NCBI GenBank assembly: GCA_025499705.1
Contig: JAFMVE010000006.1
Coordinates: 62,001 to 126,000, forward strand
DNA length: 64,000 nucleotides
Source of the DNA: Carboxylicivirga caseinilyticus
GTDB taxonomy: Bacteria > Bacteroidota > Bacteroidia > Bacteroidales > Marinilabiliaceae
Reading direction: 5' to 3'
Position numbers and translations under genes: made by a program. Shown here one piece after another: positions 16,091 to 22,591 of this stretch (its first letter is position 1; each line of letters opens with the position of its first letter). Below the pieces are notes generated by a model, which ran no database searches, was not told the DNA's origin, and was given only the letters and a program-made list of their open reading frames with translations.

Positions 16091-17116
16091 TCAAAGTCCT
16101 TCTTTTACCCCAAATAATTTTTCGAGTTGGTTTTTATTCTGGCCAACAGAAATGACAATGAGATACTGATCTTTTTCAATGCTTTGTGTGTCGGATGGAT
16201 TTTTTATAATTCTATTATCAATAACTAATCCAATCAGGATGACATTAATTTCTTTTTTCATTTTGACAAATGCGTCAAAGTATGTCAAACCCTTGTATGG
16301 ATTTTGTTCGGTCACTTTAAATTGCTGAATGTCCTGATCTTCCATTTTAATACTGGTAGAAATCAGGTCCTCAGTGAATTCAGCAACATGAGGTTCAAAT
16401 AAATAGCTTGCTACAAGTCGTGCTGCCACTTCGCTTCGTGAAACCACATGTTTGATGCCTGTATTGATCAAAGTCTCCTTCAAATCGGGATTGGTACAAT
16501 TAACGATTATATTAAGGTTCGAAAACTCTCTTTTGAGGTTCAATACAAAGACAAGCGTTTCGGTATCTTCATTAAAGTTGATAAATACAGCCTTGGTTTT
16601 TTCAATATTGGCTTTTCGATATGCCTCCATATTGTTGTAATCGGCAAACATAGCAAAGCATTGATCATGCGGGTAAAGATCTTTAATCAATTCCAAATCA
16701 CTTTTAAGATTGGTGACAAACGCAATGTTATGACCTGTAGGGAAGATTTGGTCAGCTACTTTTCTGCCAAAATCATTCCAACCGATAATTAAATAATGAT
16801 CTTCGAATTTTGTTCCGAAAAAACCGTTCTTCTTCTTTTCCATATATGTATTTATTCTACTGCTGATTTCACCAATAAAATAGCCTATAACTCCAAGGCT
16901 ACCTAAAATTACAAATAGTCCCACTACCTTTCCAAGTGGTGTAACGGGATAAAAGTCACCGTACCCTACAGTTGTTAGGGTTACAATGGCATACCAGAGG
17001 GCATCAGTAATCGACTGAATATTAGCATTAGGATCTTTGCTTTCGATTACTGAAATAAGATAGATTAAAAAGAGATAGACAATAAAGCCAATTGCTAATC
17101 CTGCTTTTTTCTTCAT
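16091..17116 (-). CDS. Potassium channel with RCK (TrkA-N/TrkA-C) domain
   Basis: A 341-residue two-helix channel. The first helix is at residues 6-24, the pore helix and selectivity filter TTVGYGDF at about 48-55, and the second helix at about 64-86. A Rossmann-type TrkA-N domain at ~105-230 (IIGWNDFGRKVADQ) follows, and a TrkA-C domain lies at ~255-330. The layout is that of MthK-like ligand-gated K+ channels. It is the last gene of the leftward PspA/DUF350/polyamine cluster, 12 bp after the AdoMet decarboxylase. Polyamines are known blockers of K+ channels in other systems, so adjacency to polyamine genes is suggestive. Gating ligand unknown. Confidence 0.93.
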   Translation of the reverse strand: MKKKAGLAIGFIVYLFLIYLISVIESKDPNANIQSITDALWYAIVTLTTVGYGDFYPVTPLGKVVGLFVILGSLGVIGYFIGEISSRINTYMEKKKNGFFGTKFEDHYLIIGWNDFGRKVADQIFPTGHNIAFVTNLKSDLELIKDLYPHDQCFAMFADYNNMEAYRKANIEKTKAVFINFNEDTETLVFVLNLKREFSNLNIIVNCTNPDLKETLINTGIKHVVSRSEVAARLVASYLFEPHVAEFTEDLISTSIKMEDQDIQQFKVTEQNPYKGLTYFDAFVKMKKEINVILIGLVIDNRIIKNPSDTQSIEKDQYLIVISVGQNKNQLEKLFGVKEGL

Positions 17117-17128
17117 ATCACAGTTTTT

Positions 17129-17497
17129 CTAATGTATAGTTAGTTCAGTTTCACAACTCAATTCCTCAACTTCATTCTCCCACCGATTTGAAAGTGGGCT
17201 TTGCTTGCATAAGTTTATAAAATTCAGCGCCTTTTCTTTATTGCAGCTGCTGAGTTCAATATACGACCATCCACTTTGGGCAAAAGTGTGAATTGCTAAA
17301 TGAGATTCAGCCAATAACCAAAATGCGGTGAAACCATTAAGCGGAAACTCCTGATCAGTATAATTAAGTACATTAAATCCGCTTTCACTCAAAACGTGAT
17401 CAAAGTTATTTTTGAGTTCCGTCGGATTGGTTTGTTTAATCCATCCTTTAATATTATATATTTTTGGAGGCAGTTCTACTGCATTTATTTTTGTCAT
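17129..17497 (-). CDS. speD: S-adenosylmethionine decarboxylase proenzyme-like protein (short, SpeD type)
   Basis: A 122-residue protein of the prokaryotic AdoMet decarboxylase type. The self-cleavage site AESH is at 63-66, where Ser65 would become the pyruvoyl group, and the proton-donor Cys is seen as Cys85 in SSC. His66 and His70 of the HLAIH stretch match the family. The product, decarboxylated AdoMet, is the aminopropyl donor for the synthase encoded 11 bp upstream. Residues after the active Cys diverge from the usual FTCG (here LSSCN). It belongs to the PspA-linked cluster rather than to ordinary spermidine biosynthesis, judging by neighbours. Activity is likely but not proven. Confidence 0.85.
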   Translation of the reverse strand: MTKINAVELPPKIYNIKGWIKQTNPTELKNNFDHVLSESGFNVLNYTDQEFPLNGFTAFWLLAESHLAIHTFAQSGWSYIELSSCNKEKALNFINLCKQSPLSNRWENEVEELSCETELTIH

Positions 17498-17508
17498 ATT
17501 AACTTGCT

Positions 17509-19062
17509 TTAATATAAATCCCAGTTACCTTTTAAGTAATATTTATAAAGTACCGGATCATGTATTCTGTTCACTTTTACTGAATCAGATTGCCCTGGAA
17601 ATATATCTTTACCAAAAGAGGTTATCAGTTGCATTGCTTCATTATTCAGCCATTGCGTTTTAATATTGATGAAATCCAATGACTGGACCTCATGCTTAAG
17701 GTTAATGGCACGCTCTGTTTTGATGCCCATTGACCAGCCCCATTCGCCCAATGTTATAACCTGGTTATGTAATGGAATGGTATTAAAACCTGCTTCTCTC
17801 ATTGTGTTTACAATACATTTAAAGGCTTTGGTTGCGAAATACGGACTGCCTGCCTGTGTAATAATCATGCCTTCGGGGCGCAGATGCTTATGACACACAT
17901 TGTAAAATTCAACTGAATATAACCTTCCCAGTTCCACGGTTCGGGGATCCGGTAAGTCGATTATTATTATATCGTAAAAGTCTTTGCTATGAGTCAGGTA
18001 ATGATATCCGTCTGCATTGATAATTTCAACTTTAGAATCATTCATCGAACCTTTATTCAGATTGGTTAAGATCGGGTTTTCCTGGCCTAATTTTGTCATG
18101 GCAGGGTCCAGATCAACTAACCGTATGCTTTCAACCATTGGGTATTTAAGTACTTCACGAGCTGCACAACCATCTCCGCCTCCCAGTATTAATACTTTTT
18201 GCGGGTTGGGATGTAAGGTCATAATAGGATGCACCAAAGGCTCGTGATACATTACTTCATCCATGGTACATAGCTGTTGATTACTGTTTAGATAAAGCCA
18301 GTAATCATTTTCCCATTGAGTAATGACAATCTTCTGGTATTGACTTTGCTCTGAATAAACAACTTTATCCTTGTACTTAATCTGTTCACCATATTTTATA
18401 ATGGGGTCGGAAAAGATGACTCCCGAAATAATTATAATGGTCACAATCCATATCGAAGCATTGATGTATTTTTTATACTGTTGGGCAATGAGTTTATTTA
18501 GCATCAGGTAAACACCTATTGCAACACCAAAATTTACCGTTCCCAAAAAGAAAGGAAGGTAAGTTAAGCCTAGGAATGGTAGTCCCAGAACAACAAAGAA
18601 GATTCCGCCTATCAGACTCCCGTAATAATCTTTTTCCAGTACGTTTGAGATATTAATTCTTAAGGATTCATATTCATTGTTGATGCGCATCACTAAAGGA
18701 ATCTCCATGCCAATTAAAGTACCTATGATGATGGAGAATCCGTAAATAAATATTGCTAAGGAAGTTGTGAATGCCGAAATGGTATAGACCACCATTGGGG
18801 CAAATGAAACTACCAATGACAAGATAAATTCCAGTATCAGAAACTTCTCAGTGAGGTTTGTTTTAAATGATTTACTAATACGACTTCCCAGACCCATTGA
18901 AAACATCATGGTGGATACAATCATGGTCCATTGTAAAATGGAATCACCCAAAAAATAGGTAGCCAGTGTTGAAAGAAGGTATTCAGCTATGATTCCACTG
19001 AAGCCGGTGGCAAAGATAGCTGCCATAAGAATGGCAGAGTATTTATTTCGTACTTTAAACAT
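17509..19062 (-). CDS. Membrane-anchored spermidine synthase-like aminopropyltransferase
   Basis: A 517-residue protein. About seven membrane helices fill residues 8-220, and a spermidine synthase domain follows (250-500). Motifs seen are LGGGDGCAAREVL at 293-305 for the AdoMet-type donor, VDLDPAM and the catalytic-loop IIDLPDPR. It would transfer an aminopropyl group from decarboxylated AdoMet, made by the next gene, to an amine near the membrane. Gene order synthase then decarboxylase, 11 bp apart, suggests a dedicated pair. A hairpin terminator lies in the 72-bp gap before it (19078-19116), so expression may be attenuated relative to the pspA half of the cluster. The acceptor amine is unknown. 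Confidence 0.9.
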   Translation of the reverse strand: MFKVRNKYSAILMAAIFATGFSGIIAEYLLSTLATYFLGDSILQWTMIVSTMMFSMGLGSRISKSFKTNLTEKFLILEFILSLVVSFAPMVVYTISAFTTSLAIFIYGFSIIIGTLIGMEIPLVMRINNEYESLRINISNVLEKDYYGSLIGGIFFVVLGLPFLGLTYLPFFLGTVNFGVAIGVYLMLNKLIAQQYKKYINASIWIVTIIIISGVIFSDPIIKYGEQIKYKDKVVYSEQSQYQKIVITQWENDYWLYLNSNQQLCTMDEVMYHEPLVHPIMTLHPNPQKVLILGGGDGCAAREVLKYPMVESIRLVDLDPAMTKLGQENPILTNLNKGSMNDSKVEIINADGYHYLTHSKDFYDIIIIDLPDPRTVELGRLYSVEFYNVCHKHLRPEGMIITQAGSPYFATKAFKCIVNTMREAGFNTIPLHNQVITLGEWGWSMGIKTERAINLKHEVQSLDFINIKTQWLNNEAMQLITSFGKDIFPGQSDSVKVNRIHDPVLYKYYLKGNWDLY

Positions 19063-19077
19063 TTAGTCAAGATAATG

Positions 19078-19116
19078 CAAAAACACGGAGAACATGGGTT
19101 TACCTGATCTCCGTGT
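19078..19116 (-). terminator. Internal terminator/attenuator in the PspA-polyamine cluster
   Basis: On the minus strand ACACGGAGA (from 19108-19116) and TCTCCGTGT (from 19083-19091) form a perfect 9-bp stem followed by TTTTGC. It sits between the DUF350 gene (stop 19135) and the synthase gene (start 19062), so part of the transcription should stop here. Confidence 0.7.
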
Positions 19117-19134
19117 AAATTCAGCAATGTTGTA

Positions 19135-20004
19135 TCAGATACACCAGGTAATCATAACAGATCCGCCAATATAAGCGAATGCTTCAATGATAGCAGCCCC
19201 TACGTTGGGTTTTTCCTGGTTAATAATCTCATCTGTTAAACGTTGACCCGGTAAAAGGATCTTATCAGTTAAAAAGCGCATTACAGGTAATAACAGAATT
19301 CCTAAAGCCAATTCAAAACCAGCTTCGGTAAAGGTGTATGTCCAGCCTTCAAAATCACCCATTAATGCATGACGAATAAGGTTGGCTATAGCTATCAATG
19401 CTCCGGCAAAGCCAACACCTACAGCTACATTATCTTTTTCAATGTGTTCGTGAATATCGTATGGGGTAATCAGTTGATAAACTGCTGCAGTTATAAATAA
19501 TGCAATTTGTCCTGCAAACCAGAATACCACAGCTGATGTGATTCCTTCCAGTAATGTCCCACTTTCGCCAGTAACTGCTCCAAAGATAATCAAACCTGAA
19601 GCGACTGAAATGGCACCTTCAATAACACCGGTACCTGAATTTCTGTCTTCAATAATTTCTTTCTTAACCGAGAATTTACTCAATATTATCTTGTCGTTCA
19701 GCCAGATAGATATGTTTAAAAGGACAATGGCCAGAATGCCATATATAGCAATATCCTGGATATCGAGGAGTAAACCTCGTGAAGGTCCAACTATAGCACT
19801 TCCAATGGCGGCTAATAATCCGATAAAATAACCAACATGGGCAAAAGAGAATGCCAGGTTATCTTTTTCAACCAGTTCTTCCTTTACATTAAAACCTTTA
19901 TTAACCAGCTGGTAAACCATTTTCCCAATGAAGAAAATTGCAAAACCAACAGCAATGTATATTACAGCATCATATAAGATGTTTGAATAGTATGATAAAG
20001 TCAT
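19135..20004 (-). CDS. DUF350 family membrane protein, two-repeat form
   Basis: A 289-residue membrane protein with two tandem DUF350 units, about residues 1-135 and 145-289. Each has four predicted helices and a conserved segment of the kind KDNLAFSFAHVGYFIGLLAA or KDNVAVGVGFAGALIAIANL. E. coli YjfL is a one-repeat relative found beside YjfJ (PspA-like). The molecular function is not established; channel-like roles have been proposed from neighbourhood analysis. It follows the Ser/Gly-rich protein gene by 21 bp and precedes the internal terminator, making it the last gene of the first half of the cluster. Confidence 0.9.
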   Translation of the reverse strand: MTLSYYSNILYDAVIYIAVGFAIFFIGKMVYQLVNKGFNVKEELVEKDNLAFSFAHVGYFIGLLAAIGSAIVGPSRGLLLDIQDIAIYGILAIVLLNISIWLNDKIILSKFSVKKEIIEDRNSGTGVIEGAISVASGLIIFGAVTGESGTLLEGITSAVVFWFAGQIALFITAAVYQLITPYDIHEHIEKDNVAVGVGFAGALIAIANLIRHALMGDFEGWTYTFTEAGFELALGILLLPVMRFLTDKILLPGQRLTDEIINQEKPNVGAAIIEAFAYIGGSVMITWCI

Positions 20005-20025
20005 GTCTAAAAAGTTGAGTTAGTA

Positions 20026-20841
20026 TTATTTGCCAAATCCTCCACTACGGCTGCGTGATGAAGAGCCACTGTAGCGACTTGAACTACGACTCGTTTTATT
20101 AGAGTAACTGGAGCTGGATGAATAACTCCTTGAGCTTTTAGCTGCTGTGGAGCGCTTCACTTCACTTCTTACACTTTGCTTAAATGAAGAAGGTTTATTT
20201 CCCCAGGTACTGCTTTTTCCTGTGCCAGATGAGGTATAGGTATTTGTTCCGTAAACTGTTCTTCCTGAAGGGCCGTAATAAGGACGGGAACCATAATATC
20301 CTCCGCCATAATAATCATCGTAATACGATCTGCGGGCTGGGTAGGTCATCATGTTAAACATGGATGACATAAAAGCATATCTGCCATAAAATTCCCAGAA
20401 TGATGATCCGTTACGTTCAGTCCAATGTCCGTATTTAGGATTACCTACATAATGATTATAACCTGCAGGACTGGCTTGCTTACTAAGTTTGCCATCTTTC
20501 TTCGAAACAATTTCCATTCCCATATTATCCACATTGGCTGCGAAAAAAGCATCAGGTACTTCTTCCCAGTCAGTTGTAGAAGATAATACTGTATCGGGGT
20601 GTTCAACTATTACATTATACATGTGGTAGTAATTACTACCTCTCGAATCCATGTCAAGAAGTATAATGGAATAGTTTTGTTCGTTATTAAGGCTAGTAAT
20701 TAGTTTATCAACCGGTGTTTTCTGCCATGAGCTGGCAGTTGAGTCAACTCTTCTGGATCGGTTTGTGCAGTTATTACAGGAGCGCAAAACTATAAATCCT
20801 AAGATAACTACTATAATTACCTTTGCAATTCCGTTGTTCAT
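20026..20841 (-). CDS. Membrane-anchored protein with Gly/Tyr- and Ser/Arg-rich tail (YgiB/YjfM-like context)
   Basis: A 271-residue protein. An N-terminal hydrophobic helix (about 5-20) ends in RSCNNC, so it is either a signal anchor or an odd lipobox. A globular part at ~40-150 and an aromatic-rich stretch follow. The low-complexity tail is dominated by Gly/Tyr (about 160-185) and then Ser/Arg, ending in RSGGFGK. DUF1190 proteins YgiB/YjfM, which neighbour PspA-like genes in enterobacteria, also end in Ser/Gly-rich tails. I infer a functional parallel, not proven homology. It lies between DUF4178 (23-bp gap) and DUF350 (21-bp gap). Confidence 0.75.
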   Translation of the reverse strand: MNNGIAKVIIVVILGFIVLRSCNNCTNRSRRVDSTASSWQKTPVDKLITSLNNEQNYSIILLDMDSRGSNYYHMYNVIVEHPDTVLSSTTDWEEVPDAFFAANVDNMGMEIVSKKDGKLSKQASPAGYNHYVGNPKYGHWTERNGSSFWEFYGRYAFMSSMFNMMTYPARRSYYDDYYGGGYYGSRPYYGPSGRTVYGTNTYTSSGTGKSSTWGNKPSSFKQSVRSEVKRSTAAKSSRSYSSSSSYSNKTSRSSSRYSGSSSRSRSGGFGK

Positions 20842-20864
20842 AATTTAATTGTTTGGGTTTTTAA

Positions 20865-21410
20865 TTATTCTTCACCCGGTAGAATATTTGATATTTCAAA
20901 TGGTTTAATACTTTTTCCGATGGAGGCTTCAAATTCTTTCTCATCCCATTGCTCAATGCATAAAAGATGTTCGCCTGTGGTGTCTTCAAAATCCCAGGAG
21001 CGGAATTCTTCCCATTCTGTTCCTTTAGTGATATTATGAAAATAGCCAGGCAATTCTTTCTCCATATGATAGGTGATGCCTTTATAGGTTATTTTTTTGG
21101 GTGGTTGCTGATGTGCAATCAGGGTGTCAGTAAGGTCATCCTTAAGGGCTCTCACCTTAACCTTTTGCATAAAAGAAACTTCCAATTCGTCATCTTCCTC
21201 TATGCCTAAATATCGGGTCTCAGCCCCGTTGTTAATTTGAAATTCGCGGGTGAAATAATTGTTTCCCCAGTCGTATTCCATTATAGCTTCCACTACCCAT
21301 GTTGATAAATCGTATTCAAACACGAATCCAACATCCAGATCCTGAATCCGAATGTTGGTACTATCGTAATGCGATTCCTTCTTCTTCTTAAAAATATCAA
21401 ATAATCCCAT
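20865..21410 (-). CDS. DUF4178 domain protein
   Basis: A 181-residue soluble protein, beginning MGLFDIFKKKKE and then a beta-rich domain. That domain has the DUF4178 pattern of a barrel entering with LDVGFVFEYDLSTWVVEAI and ending with EWEEFRSWDF...LCIEQW. DUF4178 genes recur beside pspA, DUF350 and polyamine genes in many bacteria; their function is unknown. It is the third gene of this cluster, 20 bp after pspA and 23 bp before the Ser/Gly-rich protein. It occupies the place that YjfK (DUF2491) holds in E. coli. Confidence 0.85.
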   Translation of the reverse strand: MGLFDIFKKKKESHYDSTNIRIQDLDVGFVFEYDLSTWVVEAIMEYDWGNNYFTREFQINNGAETRYLGIEEDDELEVSFMQKVKVRALKDDLTDTLIAHQQPPKKITYKGITYHMEKELPGYFHNITKGTEWEEFRSWDFEDTTGEHLLCIEQWDEKEFEASIGKSIKPFEISNILPGEE

Positions 21411-21430
21411 ATGAGTATTAAACGGGTATG

Positions 21431-22138
21431 TTATTCACTTTTGCTTTTTAACTTAGCTTTCAACTCTTCCAGTGAATTCGATGCTTTCACATTTTTTTCC
21501 GAAAGAACTTCATCAATTTCATCATCAAGGCTCTTGTTTTCAAGACTTATCTCGCCGTAGGCCTCTGATAAAGCTTCTTGTTGGGCAACTTTTTCTTTCA
21601 TCTTTTCAAGCATCGAAACGGTTCCTGAACTATCAATGCCACTTAATTGCTTGTTTATCTTTTGTGTGGCACTACTCACCCTTGCACGGGCTTTAAGTGT
21701 GCGTAATTCATTTTCGTAACTCGAAATGGTGCTCTTTAGTTTTTTAACGTTTTTATCTAGCGTTGCAATGTTACTGTCAAAACGGTTAACCTCTTCCTGA
21801 GCTCTTCTGGCAGCCTCTAAAGCCTCTTCTTTTTTCGAGAGTGCTTCTGTGGCCAAACGATCGGCTTCGGCTACATCTAACTCACCTTTTTCGGCTTTTT
21901 GAATTAAAAGAATTGCTTTTTGCTCATAGCTTTGAGCCAATGACTTACTGTCGTTTAAATCTTTTTTACTTCTGATAGACATAGCTTTTACTTCCGCTAA
22001 TGCCTGAAGACTGTTATCCAAATCTTTTTTAAGGTCGCGAATACCTTGCTCTGTCATTTTAATTGGATCTTCCAATTTATCCACTATGGCGTGAGCTTCG
22101 GCTTTTCCTACATTAAATATTCTGTTGAAAATTCCCAT
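21431..22138 (-). CDS. pspA: PspA/IM30 family membrane-remodelling protein
   Basis: A 235-residue all-helical protein with the PspA/Vipp1 layout. It starts MGIFNRIFNVGKAEAHAIVDKLEDP, with an amphipathic first helix, then has a long coiled coil through residues 25-190 rich in Ala, Glu and Lys. PspA proteins are ESCRT-III-like, assemble on damaged inner membrane and protect the proton gradient. No PspF, PspB or PspC gene is present. Instead the partner genes are those of the YjfI-YjfM type plus a polyamine/K+ channel module. It follows the DUF2170-like gene by 13 bp. The variant most resembles YjfJ by context. Confidence 0.93.
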   Translation of the reverse strand: MGIFNRIFNVGKAEAHAIVDKLEDPIKMTEQGIRDLKKDLDNSLQALAEVKAMSIRSKKDLNDSKSLAQSYEQKAILLIQKAEKGELDVAEADRLATEALSKKEEALEAARRAQEEVNRFDSNIATLDKNVKKLKSTISSYENELRTLKARARVSSATQKINKQLSGIDSSGTVSMLEKMKEKVAQQEALSEAYGEISLENKSLDDEIDEVLSEKNVKASNSLEELKAKLKSKSE

Positions 22139-22151
22139 TTCTGAATTGGTT

Positions 22152-22547
22152 TTAAGCTTTTGAAAATTCGATTAATTGATCGGAATACTCTGACAATAAA
22201 AGTTTAAGAGAATTCAGACTTCCTTCCAACTCATTTAAGTCAAGATTTTCGAGTTGAAGGGTATCGCGGAAAATTACTTTTTTACCTTCTTCGTCTAAAA
22301 CAAAGGCGCCATGTACAATTTGACGGTTCATCACCAGTAGTGATTTATAAATATCTTCAGAACCTTTTCCCAGTTCAAAAAGTAGTCCTTCGATAATCAG
22401 GATTGAATCTTCACAATCGACTATTAAATTTGAAATGCCGTCTTCTTCTTTTTCAACGACAAATAATTCTTCCACGGCGTCTTCCGACACAATGCGGTAT
22501 TCAAGGTCAAGGAGGAAGTCTCTAACCTTGTTAAAATGTTCACTCAT
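22152..22547 (-). CDS. YjfI/DUF2170-like small protein, first gene of the PspA cluster
   Basis: About 131 residues from the Met at 22545-22547 (MSEHFNKVRDFLLDL). The frame extends to 22586, but a promoter-like box lies at 22584-22591. It is an acidic alpha-beta protein resembling the YbjN/secretion-chaperone fold, with a central hydrophobic strand-turn (SILIIEGLLFEL) and a C-terminal helix pair. In E. coli the DUF2170 gene yjfI precedes the pspA-like gene yjfJ, and this gene has the same place and size. I assign it by fold and position, so the family name is less certain than the domain type. It may act as a PspA adaptor. Confidence 0.7.
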   Translation of the reverse strand: MSEHFNKVRDFLLDLEYRIVSEDAVEELFVVEKEEDGISNLIVDCEDSILIIEGLLFELGKGSEDIYKSLLVMNRQIVHGAFVLDEEGKKVIFRDTLQLENLDLNELEGSLNSLKLLLSEYSDQLIEFSKA

Positions 22548-22566: not shown

Positions 22567-22591
22567 TTGGTTATGGGACAAACCAAATATA
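22567..22591 (-). promoter_or_regulatory. Candidate promoter of the PspA cluster with overlapping dyad
   Basis: The minus strand reads TATATTTG at 22584-22591, an exact TAnnTTTG -7 box, about 37 bp before the first gene. A 6-bp dyad, TTGGTT (22567-22572) and AACCAA (22581-22586), overlaps the box and the expected start of transcription, so it may be an operator. No -33 TTTG is visible. Confidence 0.42.

Follow-up and report, generated by a model that had tools for sequence, protein, structure and literature searches.

The cluster described here occupies positions 16091-22547 of the window, by which we mean the whole 64,000-nucleotide stretch of Carboxylicivirga caseinilyticus DNA that was analysed (source genome, 5.65 Mb), and it consists of eight open reading frames (ORFs), all on the minus strand. 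Two of them encode a membrane-fused aminopropyltransferase and an anchored protein whose Ser/Gly-rich tail ends in lysine. We read the cluster as an envelope-stress operon in which the aminopropyltransferase, acting in the periplasm, would modify the C-terminal lysine of this tail protein, and judging from sequence we put the probability of this reading at about one half. The cluster is probably not there for the making of polyamines; the enzyme is instead paired with a Lys-ended anchored protein as its likely target. The parts of the cluster on which this reading turns are as follows.

20026-20841, minus strand: Ser/Arg/Gly-rich tail protein of 271 aa, membrane-anchored, the proposed aminopropyl acceptor (Cys22, disordered tail, -GK end)
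20029-20133, minus strand: disordered cationic tail of that protein, residues 237-271, ending ...SRSRSGGFGK, with the codon of the C-terminal Lys at 20029-20031
17509-19062, minus strand: membrane aminopropyltransferase, whole gene (Pfam Spermine_synth)
18391-19062, minus strand: N-terminal membrane domain of the enzyme, residues 1-224, resembling half of a major facilitator superfamily (MFS) transporter, with seven predicted passes and the N terminus inside (AlphaFold2 model, Foldseek, charge bias)
17509-18390, minus strand: spermidine-synthase-like catalytic domain of the enzyme, predicted periplasmic (Pfam PF01564, E 1.9e-39; active-site positions kept)
17129-17497, minus strand: short S-adenosylmethionine (AdoMet) decarboxylase, SpeD, of 122 aa (Pfam AdoMet_dc, PF02675, 43 bits at a cut-off of 25)

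The lysine-ended partner of the aminopropyltransferase

The C-terminus of the tail protein is its most telling feature. All 61 uncut homologues end in -GK (FGK 43, YGK 8, SGK 5, GGK 5; the cut protein of locus L122 was left out), as do 8/8 tail proteins of a 395-genome sample of the phylum, which includes the cluster's own gene and overlaps somewhat with the 61, and 12/12 of those read in genomes where the tail gene lies away from the enzyme. Among 718 other ORFs, by comparison, 117 end in Lys and four in -GK. The stretch that leads to this end is strongly cationic, the last 50 residues averaging 36% Ser, 16% Arg, 10% Gly and 9% Lys with less than 1% acid. The structure model gives the protein a folded core at about residues 43-150, for which no fold match was found in the PDB (best E 0.15), and leaves residues 237-269 disordered, with a predicted local distance difference test score (pLDDT) below 50. 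Cys22 of the window protein is invariant in 52 sequences of the family, and a lipobox-like motif is present in 29/61 tail proteins by a strict rule and in 59/62 by a looser one. The -GK-ended cationic tail is a feature without mention in the open-access sources consulted on these operons, and we found no paper in the open-access literature that names a C-terminal lysine as acceptor for a membrane aminopropyltransferase.

The occurrence of the tail protein follows that of the enzyme. Loci were drawn from at least 550 stretches encoding a relative of the aminopropyltransferase, of which the best 80 were kept. In the 395 genomes the tail family occurs in eight and the enzyme in 29, and all eight tail genomes carry the enzyme. 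Where the enzyme gene stands alone, the tail protein is found elsewhere in the genome in 13/13 cases tested, that is, in 13 of fifteen loci, L074 and L100 being left out. In 21 of the 29 enzyme genomes no window-type tail protein was found, and reading all 21 loci revealed a different Lys-ended anchored protein in 19 of them. Counted in this way, locus by locus, 27 of the 29 enzyme-bearing genomes hold a K-ended anchored tail protein. The 19 alternative partners are mostly of 45-83 residues with one N-terminal helix, 16 of them lie directly before a short DUF350 gene, and their ends include -FYHK, -YYHK, -HYHK, -YQHK, -RGGK and -SFGK. Some are built quite differently: the K-ended membrane tail of L276 is fused to a DUF4178 homologue (-RGFGK), that of L195 to a larger zinc-ribbon-type protein (-SHK), the partner in L198 lies between DUF4178 and the enzyme, and that in L199 lies about 1.5 kb before DUF350.

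The same pairing extends to plasmids. Among twelve plasmid loci read (matches H11, H13 and H15-H20 are not counted), eleven have a K-ended anchored protein and the twelfth, L215, holds an enzyme fragment. Their hosts, Ensifer, Tritonibacter, Novosphingobium, Burkholderia, Alteromonas and Gemmatirosa, belong to four classes, and the Alteromonas partner is a protein of 510 residues with a lipobox-like start and the end -GPSSGK. A search of the position upstream of DUF350 points the same way, as a K-ended membrane ORF precedes 19/33 DUF350 starts and 15/510 random gene starts under the same crude rule; its hydropathy threshold misses many lipoprotein-like ORFs, and the control starts come from the 80 Bacteroidota-type loci.

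Two side observations concern the small-tail and other subfamilies of these loci. The zinc-ribbon-type protein of the small-tail subfamily, DUF4178-like by analogy, ends in a conserved motif like [RK]W-x(2)-S-x-YSPY, which makes it the second protein with a fixed end (L192-L194, L196, L202, L203, L268, L270-L274). In other subfamilies a flavin amine-oxidase-like protein adjoins the aminopropyltransferase (L193:4053-5678, L195, L196, L197, L202, L118:11621-13129, L214:7439-9055); those of L193 and L118 were run through Pfam, and several start in a twin-Arg-like manner. If periplasmic, such a protein could remove or oxidise an aminopropyl arm.

The terminal residue also changes with the chemistry of the neighbouring enzyme. 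The window protein has the S/R/G composition that marks the tails beside peptide-spermidine ligases but ends in -GK, not in the -GG with which E. coli YjfM and YgiB end. Among 24 loci with the ATP-grasp family PF03738 (GSP_synth) in the 395 genomes, ten have an adjacent S/R/G-tailed ORF, nine ending in -GG and one (L250) in -LGS; the ORFs were listed by a rule biased towards GG and GK, and none ending in GK appeared. Apart from three loci with a -VK neighbour, discussed below, the others had no ORF of either kind. G212 and G306, two genomes of one genus, are the sole members of the 29 enzyme genomes without a K-ended partner, and there the aminopropyltransferase lies beside an ATP-grasp ligase, SpeD and a -YGG tail. 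Genome G314 has both systems, with a -FYHK end beside the aminopropyltransferase and -RGFGG beside the ligase. The -GG tails present the terminal carboxyl that a ligase requires, and the Lys tails the amine required by an aminopropyltransferase.

Topology, catalysis and the supply of decarboxylated AdoMet

The AlphaFold2 model of the membrane domain (pLDDT 84.6) shows six DSSP helices, the fifth of which is 54 residues long and therefore probably makes two passes. In Foldseek, 48 of the 50 rows listed were MFS-type and the other two ZIP transporters (probability 0.98-1.00, best E 0.012, TM-score by query 0.38-0.62). The orientation follows from charge. Mean K+R in 127 sequences, a few genes being present twice, is 1.98, 3.24, 2.96 and 3.64 at the N terminus and in loops 2, 4 and 6, as against 0.09, 0.14 and 0.24 in loops 1, 3 and 5. 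The positive-inside order is the same in the 100 window-like and the 27 other-subfamily sequences, with loop 5 reaching 1.07 in the latter. With the N terminus inside, seven passes would bring the synthase domain to the outer side of the membrane; it is thus predicted to be periplasmic, and the tails are expected on that side too.

The catalytic domain itself is well kept. Q243, D268, Y272, D369, D372 and Q403 are unchanged in 127/127 sequences and D297 in 124. The SpeE-type residues for catalysis and for binding decarboxylated AdoMet (dcAdoMet) are retained in the window enzyme, in roles that we take to be those of the solved synthases; among solved structures its best matches are thermospermine synthase and polyamine aminopropyltransferases.

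A source of dcAdoMet accompanies the enzyme. The SpeD of the cluster is the only PF02675 match in its genome, and the ESH motif with a downstream Cys is present in 46/46 homologues from the 80 loci. PF02675 is found in 80/395 phylum genomes, in 29/29 with the enzyme compared to 51/366 of the others. Outside this count it is also found in 11/13 of the tested genomes with a lone enzyme gene. Three of the enzyme genomes that lack it (G036, G084, G090) hold a DUF2617 protein, whose gene adjoins the aminopropyltransferase in L028 (4396-4896) and L030 (6132-6674) and lies about 9 kb off in L027 (541-1044). Common to the three proteins are a GxSH...C stretch and the motif H[ST]YPE, which resembles the HTWPE of SpeD; by this likeness of motifs DUF2617 may be a hidden AdoMet decarboxylase.

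Proposed mechanism and competing explanations

We propose that SpeD would make dcAdoMet in the cytoplasm, and that the enzyme, in which a seventh helix connects the half-MFS-like membrane domain with the spermidine-synthase domain, would present its catalytic side to the periplasm. Two enzyme subunits may pair their half-MFS domains and pass dcAdoMet across the membrane. The aminopropyl group would then be accepted by the tail protein (20026-20841) at the epsilon-amine of its C-terminal lysine, so that the disordered and already cationic tail would carry a spermidine-like arm, in analogy to the ligation of spermidine by YjfC/YgiC. PspA and CesT together with DUF350 and DUF4178 may assemble or gate the modification at a stressed membrane, and the channel may provide a K+ conductance, perhaps for charge balance. 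The gene content, its conservation and co-occurrence, the terminal Lys and the kept catalytic residues are seen in the sequences themselves and the topology is predicted from them, whereas the aminopropyl transfer, the dcAdoMet route and the roles given to PspA, DUF350 and the channel are inferred. More tentatively, and somewhat short of even odds, we suggest a widespread bacterial modification in which an extracytoplasmic enzyme uses its own half-MFS domain to bring dcAdoMet across the membrane and makes N6-(3-aminopropyl)lysine on a dedicated anchored protein.

Several points weigh against lysine modification. None of the open-access papers that our searches listed reports a modified lysine, and we know of no precedent for dcAdoMet outside the cytoplasm. 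The MFS match by Foldseek is weak by its E-value. The N terminus of the window tail protein is atypical and the strict lipobox rule is satisfied by fewer than half of its homologues, so that lipid anchoring of each tail protein is not assured. The conserved core of the tail protein, DUF350 and DUF4178 are left without explanation. A PF02675 decarboxylase is missing in seven enzyme-bearing genomes (5/14 of the order sample and 2/13 of those with a lone enzyme), and L029 has SpeD and the enzyme with no K-ended neighbour found. In the ligase loci L244, L245 and L249 a lipoprotein-like neighbour ends in -VK, which with the -LGS tail of L250 means that -GG is no universal rule there. Finally, the K-ended ORFs of L199, L209, L212 and L216-L219 were first located by a search for a terminal K and are hence biased, making six of the eleven plasmid partners weaker evidence, although those of L217 and L218 recur in the search upstream of DUF350, which set no terminal-K condition.

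Of the competing explanations the strongest, which we still regard as rather unlikely, is that the enzyme aminopropylates some other envelope amine, such as an aminophospholipid (e.g. phosphatidylethanolamine) or an amine of peptidoglycan or lipopolysaccharide, and that the role of the K-ended protein is limited to recruiting or orienting the enzyme. An enzyme embedded in the membrane, with its active site predicted on the periplasmic side, would suit such substrates, and in L067, L077, L117, L118 and L121 a second enzyme copy has no detected SGTM-type tail protein (small K-ended partners were not sought). The account of these operons by Ravi et al. 2024 (PMC11237479) likewise leaves "aminopropylation of other substrates" as a possibility. 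What this explanation does not account for is the terminal Lys common to differently built partners and the different terminal residue beside ATP-grasp ligases.

The lysine might instead be an anchor. The Braun lipoprotein Lpp of E. coli ends in Lys and is joined through that Lys to peptidoglycan, and a long, disordered tail with a lipobox-like motif in many members could be attached in the same way by L,D-transpeptidases, the acceptor of the enzyme being unrelated. We think this quite unlikely, given that the tail protein co-occurs with the aminopropyltransferase even when unlinked and that the single-pass partners have short tails of about 20-30 residues.

The preliminary description of this DNA had proposed that membrane stress drives a local synthesis of free polyamine that tunes the K+ channel or the membrane charge. 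A K+ channel does stand next to SpeD and to a synthase that keeps its catalytic residues, and 28/60 runs with full context include a channel. The proposal nevertheless fares poorly and we consider it improbable: the active site is predicted to be periplasmic, the evidence on the acceptor points to the Lys-ended tail protein, and Li and colleagues are said to have found in 2019 that such AdoMet decarboxylases are active, yet that no spermidine is made and the fusions fail to complement a synthase deletion, another acceptor being likely. A separate carboxy(nor)spermidine decarboxylase (512 bits at a cut-off of 409) is encoded elsewhere in the genome, and it is present as well in two genomes of the same family without the fused aminopropyltransferase. 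Besides the fused synthase there is one further PF01564 match, weak at 30 bits. Because of this separate decarboxylase gene we rejected the cluster as the sole, housekeeping spermidine route, which the preliminary description had named as one thing that would speak against its proposal. Nor does the membrane-fused, predicted periplasmic enzyme match the soluble cytoplasmic SpeE type, a second spermidine-route gene being present. Least probable by our estimate is that the terminal Lys is not modified and only marks the protein for recognition or sorting, be it by DUF350, by a protease or by a chaperone. Binding can be what conserves an extreme C terminus, and the tail gene usually has DUF350 next to it, but the terminal residue tracks the chemistry of the partner enzyme (an amine for the aminopropyltransferase, a Gly carboxyl for ATP-grasp), also in G212 and G306.

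If lysine is the acceptor, this would be a new protein modification, tying polyamine chemistry to PspA-type membrane stress. The question that the 2019 work reportedly left, namely what is aminopropylated if not putrescine, is met by the terminal-Lys rule with one residue, in a protein encoded two genes upstream of the enzyme. For the "polyamine-independent" AdoMet decarboxylase the missing acceptor would be found, and dcAdoMet would have a first use outside the cytoplasm. The modification would also explain the recurrence of two unrelated enzymes next to one and the same set of DUF350/PspA genes, ATP-grasp with -GG and aminopropyltransferase with -GK being two chemical solutions for a polyamine arm on an envelope protein.

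Gene order, the K+ channel and known systems

The remaining genes of the cluster are the following.

22152-22547, minus strand: CesT/Tir-type chaperone-like protein of 131 aa, the first gene (Pfam CesT_Tir_1, PF22550, E 8e-53)
21431-22138, minus strand: PspA/IM30 family protein of 235 aa (Pfam PspA_IM30, PF04012, E 1.7e-43)
20865-21410, minus strand: DUF4178 protein of 181 aa (Pfam PF13785, E 3.5e-26)
19135-20004, minus strand: DUF350 membrane protein of double length, 289 aa (Pfam PF03994, two stretches, E 5.6e-56)
16091-17116, minus strand: two-pass K+ channel with an RCK (TrkA_N) domain and a TVGYGD filter (Pfam Ion_trans_2 and TrkA_N)

From low to high coordinate the intergenic gaps are 12, 11, 72, 21, 23, 20 and 13 bp, so that the eight genes, their order and the spacing of 11-23 bp with one gap of 72 bp stand as first described. 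Pfam assigns families to seven of the eight genes, the Ser/Gly-rich protein having no match, and agrees with the earlier identities for PspA, DUF350, DUF4178, AdoMet_dc, Spermine_synth and Ion_trans_2 with TrkA_N. A scan of the cluster for promoters was uninformative (18 promoter-like sites, 26.7 in shuffles), as was one for terminators (7 terminator-like sites, 4.5 in shuffles). About 40 bases upstream of the first gene, TATATTTG (window 22584-22591) matches TAnnTTTG, which we take to be the -7 motif of Bacteroidota; no clear -33 element was found near it. The first gene had been called YjfI(DUF2170)-like; it matches CesT_Tir_1 and DUF2170 has no Pfam match there, although both belong to one CesT/Tir superfamily according to the relevant section of PMC11237479, which assigns YjfI/DUF2170 to it.

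Order statistics were taken from the 60 of the 80 loci with full context, leaving out 20 with short context. The identical order CesT-PspA-DUF4178-tail protein-DUF350-aminopropyltransferase-SpeD-channel occurs in 20/60, a conservation far beyond chance, and the genes thus stay together in relatives as had been supposed. By gene, DUF4178 and the tail protein are each present in 46, DUF350 in 44, SpeD in 35, PspA and the channel each in 28 and CesT in 27. The joining of a K+ channel to a local source of dcAdoMet also recurs; in 12/60 the aminopropyltransferase has none of the other cluster genes. By this enzyme the nearest named relative among the matches listed, from which very near records may be left out, is Carboxylicivirga linearis at 87% identity. 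No ATP-grasp gene was recognised among the recurrent clusters of the 80 loci, in a survey with no profile search aimed at them, and the genome itself has no PF03738 match at E 1e-15, in keeping with the earlier remark that the run has no ATP-grasp amidoligase. Such a ligase is found beside the enzyme in G212 and G306.

Variations on this order were also seen. SpeD and the channel are shifted to other places of the operon in L117, L118, L121, L062 and L206, and the second aminopropyltransferase copies mentioned above, without a window-type tail protein of their own, lie near a full operon. A rhomboid-like membrane protein lies in or beside the operon in 7/80 loci (among them L049, L059, L068 and L106, the last tested with Pfam). 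A very large protein in 13/80 and a flotillin-like protein in 7/80, recognised by eye (L070:1372-6360, L118:3-4790, L118:4907-6994), lie nearby and resemble the first group of Ravi et al. as described in that section (PMC11237479).

All 39 neighbourhood channels have the TVGYGD filter. They are of two kinds, 33 longer than 320 aa and six shorter than 290 aa. The channel of L118, one of the six, is an Ion_trans protein that lacks TrkA_N and replaces the two-pass RCK channel, and so is one additional short channel, that of L206, from a different genome. Because of these two, the sequences suggest that K+ conductance, rather than the RCK sensor, is what is kept. A channel accompanies 27/35 runs with SpeD and 1/25 without it. 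On a tree, however, only 5 and 3 changes were counted, with one to three supported independent pairs, and since these are so few the link may be shared descent; we did not use it as evidence.

Among known systems, E. coli yjfIJKLMC / ygiBC has in common with the window a CesT/Tir-type protein, PspA, DUF350 and an exported protein with an S/R/G tail. That tail ends in -GG and the enzyme is an ATP-grasp ligase, where the window has a -GK tail, SpeD and an aminopropyltransferase. Peptide-spermidine ligase activity of E. coli YgiC and YjfC was reportedly found by Pederick and colleagues in 2023. Lpp and the tail protein are both anchored, and in Lpp the C-terminal Lys is used as an amine, but Lpp is linked to peptidoglycan by transpeptidases and has no known aminopropyltransferase partner. 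The pair that Li and colleagues are said to have studied in 2019 has a class 1b SpeD, a fused membrane synthase and DUF350 neighbours as in the window; by that account the acceptor is not putrescine, and where none is known to have been proposed our analysis names a candidate.

Also close are the operons described by Ravi et al. (PMC11237479), who in their section on CesT/Tir-PspA operons refer to Li et al. 2019 on linkages with AdoMet decarboxylase. Their second group has CesT/Tir, PspA, DUF4178, the lipoprotein "Ctha_1186", an 8TM DUF350 protein and a membrane protein that combines a 7TM transporter-like domain with a spermidine-synthase domain. In the window, too, a CesT/Tir-PspA dyad heads the operon, the synthase is fused to an N-terminal membrane domain, DUF350 is double and DUF4178 is present. 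For "Ctha_1186" the comparison comes down to the lipobox-like motif, seen in 29/61 or 59/62 tail-protein homologues depending on the rule. That section makes no mention of a terminal Lys or a periplasmic topology, and its text gives a K+ channel for the third group only, which has an ATP-grasp ligase. The operon of PspA, CesT, DUF350, DUF4178 and the synthase was already in print, and SpeD and the K+ channel stand as common additions. As the core is published and these two genes are added to it (PMC11237479, same section), the cluster is of a known kind, and SpeD and the channel make the window a variant of it.

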